This document shows, in pieces, positions 5,776 through 7,901 of a stretch of 7,901 bases of DNA. Location of the stretch: positions 1 to 7,901 of the forward strand of contig JAAXHY010000517.1 in the NCBI GenBank assembly GCA_012270665.1. Reading direction: 5' to 3'. Within the stretch, counting starts at the first letter, position 1. Each line of letters begins with the position of its first letter. Source of the stretch: Dehalococcoidia bacterium (GTDB taxonomy: Bacteria > Chloroflexota > Dehalococcoidia > SAR202 > UBA11138). The position numbers and the translations under genes are program-made. The notes beneath the pieces are model-generated. The model was not told the DNA's origin. It worked only from the letters and a program-made list of their open reading frames with translations, and searched no databases.

Positions 5776-5794
5776 AATGATATTCTGTATCATT
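5776..5794. promoter_or_regulatory. Candidate metal-regulator (Zur/Fur-type) operator
   Basis: AATGATATTCTGTATCATT is a perfect 7-bp inverted repeat with a 5-nt spacer. It is 19 bp long and AT-rich, with TGATA/TATCA cores like the boxes of the Fur superfamily. It overlaps the expected initial transcribed region just downstream of the -10 element, a classic repressor position, and the gene it would control is a zinc-binding receptor. Zur is the natural candidate; Fur or MntR/Mur cannot be excluded from sequence alone. Confidence 0.6.
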
Positions 5795-5877: not shown

Positions 5878-6144
5878 ATGAATTACAAGAGTATCTTGAC
5901 TCTTATCGCCGCGCTGGCAATCATCGCGGCGATTGTAGGGGCCTGCGGAGACGACACCGAGGAAAGCGCTCCTTCGACGACTTCAGCCGCGCCCGCGGTC
6001 CAGAGCGTGCCGACAAGCGTTCCTCAGCCAGCGCCACAGCCCACTGCGCCACCGGTGGCGCAAGCCACTATGGCTCCTCCCGCGACGGCTACGGCCCAAC
6101 CACAGATTTCTTCCCCATCCCCCCAGCCAGCCGACATGCCATAG
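5878..6144 (+). CDS. N-terminal fragment: lipoprotein signal peptide and Pro-rich tether
   Basis: If TAG terminates, this 88-residue piece is all that is made from the natural start. It has lysine at 4, a hydrophobic core ILTLIAALAIIAAIVGA and a lipobox ending at C23, followed by DD. The rest is low-complexity Pro/Ala/Thr/Ser/Gln, ending PADMP. Such tethers hold bacterial binding proteins a short distance from the membrane. Alone it has no binding domain and would be a non-functional lipopeptide. Confidence 0.7.
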   Translation: MNYKSILTLIAALAIIAAIVGACGDDTEESAPSTTSAAPAVQSVPTSVPQPAPQPTAPPVAQATMAPPATATAQPQISSPSPQPADMP

Positions 6145-7901
6145 CTGAGTGTGGTCAGCACCAGCAACATCGTCGGAGACTGGGTCAAGCGGGTCGGCGG
6201 CGAAAGGGCGACATCCTTCTCCCTTCTACCTCCCGACGCCGACCCGCACATCTTCCAGCCCGGAGCGAGGGATGTCGCTAAAGTTGCGGACGCCGACTTG
6301 GTGTTCAGCGTTGGTCTGTCCCTGGAAGCGGGTTGGCTGGAAGAGCTTATCGAGAACGCCGCCAAGGACCACGAGTCCATCGTGGCGCTCGCAGAGTTCG
6401 CGGAACCCATCGAGTTCGTGGATATATTCGATGAACACGGCCACGAGGATGAACACGGCCATGAGGAAGAGGGCGAGGGACACGTCTCGCTCACCGGCAG
6501 ACTGCTGGTAGCGGACGCGAACGAAGCCCACCTCTCCGTAGTGGATCTGATGACTGGCAAGGTCGCGGAGGAGGCTTTCGAGGTCGCGGCCCCCGGAGCG
6601 AGCGTTTACTCCAGCCCAAATTACCGATTCGGGTTTGCCGTCGCTAGGGGAGATGGGGACGACGATGACCGCGTTCACATATTCGACAGCGGCGTTTACC
6701 TTGTCGAACACGGCGATCACTATGACCGCGTCAGCAAACCGATTGCCATGCTGGAACTAGAGACCAGCGACGAGCGTCCCATACACGTAGCGAATGGTGG
6801 CGAGTGGACAGCCATCTTCCATGACGGCACAGGGCGTGTCGCGCTCCTGAACGAGCACGAGATGGAAGAGTCCGGGGACGGCTATGACATCGCTTTCTTG
6901 AATGCCGGGCTGCAGCACGGCGCGGTGGTGCCTATGCACGGAGATGTGTTCGCGGTGTCCGTAGCCAATCCTGACTATCCGGACAAGACGGAGAGCAGCT
7001 TGCCGGTCGGCGTGGAGATTCGGAACTTGGATGACCACGTGATTGATAGCAGCAGCGCGGATGATTGCTCCGGATTGCACGGGGAAGCGCACAATAACCA
7101 TGGGGTGATGTTCGGATGCGTTGGTGGAGTTCTGTACATAGAGAGTCACGATGACCACTTCGACCATTGGTTTATAGAGAATCCCCCTGAGATGAGGTCA
7201 GAATCTCGAATCGGCGCCGTCTATGGTCATGAAGACTCGAGCGTCTTCTTCGGAAGAGCGTCCTACCGAGGCGACAGCGGATTCATGGATGACGGCATAT
7301 GGATGATAGACCCTGAAGAGAGTACGATGACACTCGCGCTCGCGGCTTCCGACGACAAACGCTCTATCGGAGCGGCATTCGGGCCTGAAGGAGAGTTTCT
7401 CTACGCGCTAACCTACGACGGAATGCTGAACGTCCTAGACACTCACGACGGTGACGTAGTATCCGAGGTCCACTTGCTGGAAACCGTTGACCCAGAGGCG
7501 ACCCCGTCTTTCATCATCGTCGGTGAGACGCTATATCTTGCCGACCCCGCTAGTGGACATGTCCTTGAGTTCAGCCTAGAAGACATGGAAGTGGAGCGTG
7601 AGTGGGAAGTTCACGGCGCGCCGAGGAGGCTCGCGTTCCTGGGGATGGTCTCAGGTGAAGAGCATCCTGAGCATGGCCATGAGGAGGGTGAGGATGAACA
7701 CGAGGAGGAAGGCCACGACGAGCACGAAGGCCACGATCACGAACATGGCGAGTTTGACCCACACTTCTGGTTCGACCCACTGAGGGTTCAGAGCGCGGTA
7801 AACGAGATTGCGACGCGACTCTCCTCGCTCGACCCGGACGGAGCCGAGATATACCAGAACAATGCGAGCGCATACATTAGTGAGTTAGCCGAACTGCATT
7901 C
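6145..7901 (+). CDS. Downstream open frame: ZnuA N-lobe, His-rich arms, AztD-like propeller and start of ZnuA C-lobe (partial)
   Basis: The frame after the TAG is open for 585 codons to the window edge and carries the whole recognisable protein. If translated separately, the first available start is GTG at 6151, inside the first beta-strand of the ZnuA lobe, with no ribosome site upstream; the next in-frame ATG lies about 400 nt further on. It would have no signal peptide, although it is plainly an exported metal-binding domain. Independent translation is therefore unlikely. The N-lobe runs ADADLVFSVGLSLEAGWLEE before the first His-rich arm, matching the normal ZnuA order. Confidence 0.75.
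   Translation, partial: MSVVSTSNIVGDWVKRVGGERATSFSLLPPDADPHIFQPGARDVAKVADADLVFSVGLSLEAGWLEELIENAAKDHESIVALAEFAEPIEFVDIFDEHGHEDEHGHEEEGEGHVSLTGRLLVADANEAHLSVVDLMTGKVAEEAFEVAAPGASVYSSPNYRFGFAVARGDGDDDDRVHIFDSGVYLVEHGDHYDRVSKPIAMLELETSDERPIHVANGGEWTAIFHDGTGRVALLNEHEMEESGDGYDIAFLNAGLQHGAVVPMHGDVFAVSVANPDYPDKTESSLPVGVEIRNLDDHVIDSSSADDCSGLHGEAHNNHGVMFGCVGGVLYIESHDDHFDHWFIENPPEMRSESRIGAVYGHEDSSVFFGRASYRGDSGFMDDGIWMIDPEESTMTLALAASDDKRSIGAAFGPEGEFLYALTYDGMLNVLDTHDGDVVSEVHLLETVDPEATPSFIIVGETLYLADPASGHVLEFSLEDMEVEREWEVHGAPRRLAFLGMVSGEEHPEHGHEEGEDEHEEEGHDEHEGHDHEHGEFDPHFWFDPLRVQSAVNEIATRLSSLDPDGAEIYQNNASAYISELAELH
6430..6465 (+). repeat. Tandem 18-bp repeat encoding two DEHGHE units
   Basis: Units 6430-6447 and 6448-6465 are identical except for one C/T difference at a third codon position, and both are in frame. 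Each encodes Asp-Glu-His-Gly-His-Glu. The repeat forms the first His-rich arm, just before the propeller. Such short in-frame duplications are a common way for His-rich metal loops to lengthen. Confidence 0.85.
6484..7653 (+). other. AztD-like beta-propeller domain inserted in the ZnuA frame
   Basis: This is the region of about residues 203-592 of the composite protein. It shows repeated beta-rich blades such as GRLLVADANEAHLSVVDLMTG, GEFLYALTYDGMLNVLDTHDG and GETLYLADPASGHVLEFSLED. AztD-type hallmarks, from knowledge of that family, are DSGVYLVEHGDHYD (H278 and H281), HGAVVPMHGDVFAVSVANPD, and a likely disulfide pair C397/C414 framing SGLHGEAHNNHG. AztD is a periplasmic propeller that hands zinc to the receptor AztC. 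Here the domain sits inside the receptor itself. The AztD assignment is by eye and the blade count was not determined. Confidence 0.7.
7657..7746 (+). other. Second His-rich metal-binding stretch
   Basis: Residues 594-623 of the composite protein contain nine histidines (596, 599, 601, 608, 613, 616, 619, 621, 623) alternating with Glu, Asp and Gly. The stretch sits immediately before the DPHFWFDP ligand motif, the usual place of the His-rich loop in ZnuA-type zinc receptors. Together with the first arm at 6430-6483 it flanks the propeller on both sides, showing that the propeller was inserted within this loop. Confidence 0.85.

Follow-up and report, generated by a model that had tools for sequence, protein, structure and literature searches.

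A zinc receptor of Dehalococcoidia with an AztD-like propeller nested in its D-loop: a putative single-chain zinc donor and acceptor

The window, i.e., the whole analysed stretch of 7,901 nucleotides, comprises positions 1 to 7,901 of contig JAAXHY010000517.1 (GenBank assembly GCA_012270665.1) of a Dehalococcoidia bacterium of the SAR202 lineage. At positions 5878–7901 it carries a gene for a zinc receptor of the ZnuA/AztC type (PF01297) that is interrupted by an AztD-like insert of ca. 380 residues, referred to below as the nested gene (Table 1). The receptor is recognized in two stretches of the frame 6151–7899 (139.5 bits against a cut-off of 29 in a Pfam profile search), and the AztC profile likewise matches in two stretches outside the insert. 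The insert is spanned by the AztD profile NF038015 (residues 120–495, numbered, as everywhere for the window protein, from base 6151; profile positions 1–352 of 356; E 7e-39) and matches in sequence the crystallised AztD (PDB 6cmk, E 2.5e-18; 6ck1, E 1e-17). The original prediction, made from the sequence alone, was thus right in regarding the insert as AztD-related, in describing His-rich arms on both its sides and in pointing to a ligand histidine of the receptor N-lobe (its H124, here His 1). It had wrongly read the motif DPHFWFDP as belonging to the C-lobe; this motif directly follows the D-loop and carries His 2. His 1 and His 2 both lie, as in ZnuA/TroA structures, in the N-lobe. The frame leaves the window ahead of receptor ligands 3 and 4.

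Table 1. Features of the nested gene and of its upstream region in the window
Position	Strand	Feature	Basis or remark
5778..5792		Palindrome TGATATTCTGTATCA, ca. 100 bp before ATG	Candidate Fur-family-like (Zur-like) operator; putative regulator
5878..6144	+	5' piece: signal of lipoprotein type (AIVGACGDD), then a linker rich in P/Q/A, ends at TAG	Lipobox by eye; no Pfam match
6142..6144	+	In-frame TAG interrupting the window copy
6145..6429	+	ZnuA/AztC N-lobe, first part; zinc ligand His 1 at 6247-6249	PF01297 profile 2-100, AztC
6430..6483	+	First His/Asp/Glu-rich arm, DEHGHEDEHGHEEEGEGH	Contains repeats
6496..7647	+	AztD-like propeller domain	NF038015, PDB 6cmk/6ck1
Codons begin 6784, 6916, 7078	+	Propeller site 1 ligands H124/H167/H218	Mapped using PMC6689063 numbering
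Codons begin 6709, 6718, 6724	+	Propeller site 2 ligands H99/H102/D104	Mapped using PMC6689063 numbering
Codons begin 7066, 7117	+	Cys214/Cys231 pair of AztD	Both Cys present
7657..7749	+	Second His/Asp/Glu-rich arm
7750..7899	+	Receptor continuation, His 2 at 7762-7764 (DPHFWFDP)	PF01297 second stretch; AdcA/ZnuA matches

The two arms occupy the D-loop position, as does the His-rich D-loop of zinc receptors, and have median lengths of 27 (first) and 43 (second) residues over 35 nested rows, with duplicates counted. By eye, the first His of the second arm (residue 505) stands 7 residues past the last matched strand, compared with 6 in PdAztD, and it may therefore lie near the expected place of the fourth site-2 ligand of AztD, the C-terminal His408.

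The point of insertion was located by aligning the receptor pieces of a close relative, P0001, with AztC (5w56), in which they abut at chain residue 91, just ahead of the GGGHYHY loop. According to PMC7463823, the D-loop of AztC comprises residues 117–133, with His138 as a zinc ligand; the loop and its three histidines are essential for zinc transfer from AztD to AztC, and in a docking model the D-loop enters the AztD pore. Since the alignment places the insert just before the D-loop, this numbering puts it inside the loop, with His 1 of the receptor before it and His 2 after it, as predicted for a chaperone inserted in the transfer loop. PMC6689063 states that site 2 of AztD sits on an extension formed by the N-terminal and the C-terminal strands together with one hairpin, that in Paracoccus AztD site 2 alone donates to AztC, that both sites are labile in vitro, that association is the rate-limiting step of the two-protein transfer, and that the AztD–AztC complex exists as a docking model only. 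Because site 2 is built at the propeller termini, nesting would put the donor site at the receptor joint. Among 50 distinct plain receptors, i.e., those devoid of the propeller, 23 have at the insertion point a loop of 24–137 residues with 5–19 histidines, and the plain receptors nearest to the nested ones in the tree described below are all long-looped (L055p, L143, L145, L140, L146, L152); a long loop is also found in the tree-nearest plain receptors L136–L139, L151, L154, and L156.

A protein search yielded 599 proteins at E <=0.001 among 7997 candidates scored, of which 120 are listed. The order of receptor N part, propeller and receptor C part was found in 117 of these 120, counted with profiles built from 60 aligned relatives that are themselves among the 120, and so the nested order is not due to chance. 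The three exceptions are P0012 and P0027, with two propellers and one receptor half absent, and P0042, devoid of the N part. Many relatives have all the domains in the same order in one open frame, in agreement with the predicted joining of donor and receptor in one chain. Receptor His 1, 2, and 3 (the last being H693) are invariant in all 60 aligned relatives, as are the two Cys residues and the six ligands tested in sites 1 and 2 of the propeller. In the wider set of 34 nested propellers (33 and the window) site 2 is the best-kept ligand set (H99 in 34, H102 in 33, D104 in 34), followed by site 1 (H124 in 33, H167 in 32, H218 in 31), while both Cys are kept in all 34. A lipobox-like motif was detected with a loose pattern in 95 of the 120 listed relatives. 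Two further observations concern the build of these proteins. In P0051 a long stretch of Ala-rich repeats (residues ca. 30–240) precedes the receptor and may hold it at a distance from the membrane. P0012 (952 residues) and P0027 (851 residues) have tandem propellers in one receptor loop, possibly through misassembly; the two of P0012 are nearly identical and are separated by a His-rich arm.

The frame from 5878 contains one stop in 674 codons, the TAG of Table 1, which lies within the linker between the signal piece and the receptor, at a place where the close relatives P0001–P0003 read open. The predicted single frame thus stands for the intact copies of the nested gene, which are present in relatives, and fails for the window copy. 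Recoding of the TAG was considered and not favoured; it is not indicated, since ruvC, also in the window, ends with TAG as an ordinary stop. That TAG serves as a normal stop there, and that it parts the signal and linker from the receptor so that no anchored protein would be made, leaves a real though minor chance that the window copy is a pseudogene of a family which is itself genuine. Against this stand the single occurrence of a stop, its location in the linker, and the 583 codons past it, which can be aligned in one unbroken frame with L001, the nearest genome locus, at a dN/dS (nonsynonymous over synonymous divergence) of 0.14, an average of both lineages; the pairwise values against L001 are 0.117/0.808. 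An error of base calling or assembly may also be the source of the TAG.

These data support the single-chain interpretation of the original prediction, and we consider it probable (about 0.62) that the family represents a membrane-anchored single-chain zinc donor–acceptor with AztD inside the receptor D-loop. The fold (for the insert, the eight-bladed beta-propeller of AztD, whose solved structures it matches in sequence), the binding of zinc, the direction of transfer and zinc itself as the metal are deduced here from sequence. According to the proposed mechanism, the propeller and the His-rich arms would catch zinc, and the arms would then lead it from propeller site 2 to the cleft of the receptor, the second arm running straight into the receptor ligand His 2. 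The receptor would pass the metal to an ABC-3 permease, whose gene adjoins the fusion in the nearest relative. In this way the association of donor and receptor, which is slow in the two-protein system, would become intramolecular, and the donor would be unable to diffuse from the anchored receptor. Cells of this group have no outer membrane, so that a donor not tied to the receptor could escape from them.

Several observations weigh against this interpretation. The window insert scores 133.6 with NF038015, below the curated cut-off of 400, so it is AztD-like rather than an equivalog, and its incomplete receptor reaches 106.3 bits with the AztC equivalog NF040870 (cut-off 350), for which seven complete nested relatives gave 158.6–282.6 bits. 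The window copy is interrupted by the TAG. One nested gene, L133, lacks H102 and all three site-1 histidines, and two others, L074 and L132, lack a part of site 1, while the receptor is kept in all three; because of these losses, the role of the propeller in zinc handling is not universal. The fourth receptor ligand (Asp279 of AztC) is replaced by Gly in 95 and kept as Asp in 2 of the 97 relatives that could be parsed, 23 of the 120 being unparsed. This Gly lies in the LYSGSLG motif of the receptor C-lobe in nested and in some plain relatives, and therefore seems to characterize the receptor subfamily and not the nesting. Besides, 27 of the 50 distinct plain receptors have merely 1–13 residues at the insertion point, 25 of 33 distinct nested loci have no ATPase and permease genes directly downstream, some of these stretches being short, and the operator discussed below is absent in its strict form from 30 of 34 nested genes.

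As an alternative to transfer from ligand to ligand, the propeller with its arms could be a tethered zinc reservoir or buffer, from which zinc dissociates to be rebound by the receptor. The acidic His arms on both sides and the lability of both AztD sites in vitro are compatible with such a role, whereas the donor site 2 being kept best of the ligand sets and the insertion at the very loop required for transfer from AztD make it rather unlikely. Propellers are, moreover, common interaction scaffolds, and the degenerate sites of L133 would suit a docking or substrate-recruiting module, e.g., for another zinc protein or a zinc chelate, that is not a donor at all; since none of the 60 close relatives compared varies at the six tested ligands, we regard this as improbable. 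A wrong fusion of neighbouring genes can be dismissed for the family, for although the assembly is metagenomic, His-rich repeats can break assemblies and several receptor halves stop at contig ends, the insert lies inside the receptor and not between genes, and the same order recurs in nearly all of the listed relatives, i.e., in independent assemblies, in part on contigs exceeding 3 million bases.

The history of the donor–acceptor arrangement was followed in separate trees of receptor and propeller. Receptor rows were required to have both halves above 25 bits (L062, whose N half scores below that, was added by hand), AztD domains below 50 bits were left out and the very incomplete row L141 was omitted. 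In a tree of receptor halves without the insert (83 genes, 33 of them nested), nested and plain receptors interleave, with 11 changes between the two states. A careful receptor tree of 79 rows, from which same-gene duplicates and then L110_p_2578, L135, L007, and L009 (long or odd) were dropped, also required 11 changes, the same number as a tree with these rows, and its starred branches force at least 7. A single clade of all nested receptors, a test named before the trees were seen, was rejected (log-likelihood lower by 1230, p-AU of the approximately unbiased test 2e-65); several subgroup topology tests were named after the trees had been seen. The propellers are more uniform, their tree of 68 rows requiring 3 changes, and one clade of all nested propellers was rejected as well (p-AU 7e-6).

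Comparison of single genes adds to this picture. The receptor halves of L056 and L133 are 72 and 78% identical and their propellers 35%, while L056 and L049 have propellers identical in 77% and receptor halves in 38 and 31%, a plain sign that the propeller has been swapped between receptors. The nested L061, L069, and L055 lie among the plain receptors of their own genomes (G283, G222, and G180, respectively), and holding the three together was rejected (p-AU 0.003). The nested L063 and the plain L152 share receptor halves identical in 94 and 92%; the loop of L152 consists of 130 residues of His/Asp/Glu repeats that match the second arm of L063. This pair amounts to a comparison with an empty site, compatible with gain or with loss of the propeller, and a clade of L059 and L063 apart from L152 was not rejected (p-AU 0.268).

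The outlier L062 is identical to P0121 of a SAR202 cluster bacterium. Its propeller falls inside a group of non-nested AztD proteins, P0122, P0126, P0128, P0129, and P0132 (100/99; inner branches 95/96 and 96/95), in a tree that also included, under other names but still labelled as nested, L132 and a duplicate of the identical L133 sequence. Because of this grouping, the fewest changes are obtained with two separate nestings; one early nesting needs more losses and is not strictly excluded. Another nested form, P0133 (709 residues) and P0134 (710 residues), scores closer to AztC and AztD, and may be separate from the main group (93/95). Within the L062 group, P0122 and P0126 (the latter from Candidatus Poribacteria) have an AztD-like propeller; P0122 ends in a FlgD_ig/T9SS-type sorting tail, by which its zinc propeller may be displayed at the cell surface.

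The propeller occurs in several receptor subfamilies, always at the D-loop. To judge from the repeats of the arms, and from P0012 and P0027 with their two propellers, recombination between His-rich repeats may be involved. With even odds, in our estimate, the AztD propeller is a mobile cassette for the D-loop, which would have entered several receptor subfamilies, in the simplest case at least two times independently (in the main Dehalococcoidia group and in L062), been exchanged between them and probably been lost again, with the His-rich arms as likely recombination sites; its geometry would lend independent support to the docking model, in which the D-loop lies near the site-2 face.

Genome searches were centred on Chloroflexota and Actinomycetota, with 14 control genomes in addition; nested loci were counted, and the receptor rows of the trees selected, with the same profiles from the 60 aligned relatives. 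An AztD match was found in 43 of 393 genomes of the class of L001; 29 genomes carry the nested gene (two of them twice) and 12 a stand-alone AztD, G196 and G234 having both, with four matches too weak to count and L062 added by hand. The stand-alone frames L051, L078, and L089 start at a contig end, and no receptor half follows them. In the phylum, 13 of 400 genomes have an AztD match, with two further nested genes, L132 and L133. Among 396 Actinomycetota genomes, 21 have an AztD match; no nesting was seen in the short stretches available, and AztD stands beside the receptor wherever a receptor was seen. A contig scan with one protein gave 9 loci, of which 1 is nested. Several actinomycetal genomes (L102–L107, L124–L129) have two different AztD-like genes flanking the receptor gene, and the second type has lost site-1 histidines in three rows. 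In L086 (6078–9178) two stand-alone AztD-like genes lie in tandem on one strand, with frames of 500 and 530 residues.

The nested gene of L001, a Dehalococcoidia metagenome-assembled genome, has the same neighbours as that of the window, i.e., a Colicin_V-type gene, an HNH gene and, on the other strand, a DNA polymerase III delta-type gene. The window ends within the fusion, while in L001 the genes of an ATP-binding cassette (ABC) ATPase and an ABC-3 permease come next, as expected from the suggestion to look for znuB and znuC, and the genome shows no second AztD match, in line with the suggested absence of a separate aztD. The ATPase and permease genes are located directly downstream in 8 of the 33 distinct nested loci (L001, L056, L059, L062, L063, L071, L132, and L133). 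No match to positions 5878–7901 was found among 72,556 plasmid records. An incomplete ABC transporter ATPase gene occupies positions 1–615 of the window on the minus strand; it resembles best the taurine-type and similar models, below their cut-offs, and not those for zinc.

The palindrome upstream of the nested gene has a counterpart at other AztD genes. The pattern TGATA-N3..7-TATCA occurs 11 times in 48 stretches, each time immediately ahead of a frame with AztD or at its 5' end; four of these sites belong to nested genes (those of the window, L001, L053, and L074, out of 34) and seven to stand-alone AztD genes (out of 14). A search of ten whole genomes with TGATAYNNNRTATCA gave 19 sites in nine of them (G001, G225, G329, G234, G196, G007, G067, G163, and G243) and none with the reversed pattern. 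These sites precede seven AztD genes, two plain ZnuA genes, two nickel/oligopeptide-type receptors (SBP_bac_5), one oxidoreductase and one Fe/heme-type receptor, the last with an ABC exporter gene on its other side; six have no assigned gene, frames having been searched against Pfam for three of them. TGATACT-N-AGTATCA has the 7-1-7 shape of Fur-family boxes. The palindrome thus points to a metal regulon, the metal of which may be zinc.

No report of an AztD nested in a receptor was found in the full-text literature searched, most subscription journals lying outside it. The component parts were already known. What is new, to judge from the literature seen, is that they are nested at the transfer loop, that this has apparently recurred and that swaps have taken place. 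Direct passage of zinc from protein to protein is poorly known, and that from AztD to AztC is among the few measured cases. A natural fixed pair of donor and acceptor, with close relatives devoid of the propeller, makes the docking model testable, and in a single chain the transfer complex could be studied without trapping and transfer followed with first-order kinetics. That a single loop should repeatedly receive an insert would be an unusual domain nesting that tracks a functional contact, and if the cassette hypothesis is true, a two-protein chaperone–receptor pair has repeatedly become a one-molecule zinc relay.

The system is related to aztABCD of Paracoccus denitrificans and Citrobacter koseri in comprising a cluster A-I receptor and an AztD-like domain with the same tested ligands and Cys pair, and, in L001, in the ABC ATPase and permease genes adjoining the nested gene. 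It differs in that AztC and AztD are separate proteins there, while here AztD lies inside the receptor D-loop, and in scoring far under the curated cut-offs of the AztC and AztD equivalogs. From AdcA of streptococci, in which ZinT is C-terminal, it is distinguished by the nesting of the helper in a loop, the ZinT of AdcA being appended and no propeller being present. Nevertheless, in AdcA, as described in PMC6689063, a receptor (ZnuA-like) and an accessory zinc protein (ZinT) are likewise united in one chain. The AztD–ZinT fusions P0129 and P0132, relatives of L062, also join an AztD-like domain to another zinc-recruiting domain, but side by side and not nested, and no receptor domain was found in them; their propeller is followed by ZinT (PF09223) and a long further part, ca. 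1080 residues in all, and P0130 and P0131 are of similar length. The closest likeness in the receptor itself is to the plain ZnuA proteins with a long His loop of the same class, whose receptor halves are up to 94 and 92% identical, as between L063 and L152, and which differ in having, as in L152, His/Asp/Glu repeats in the loop in place of the arms and the propeller.

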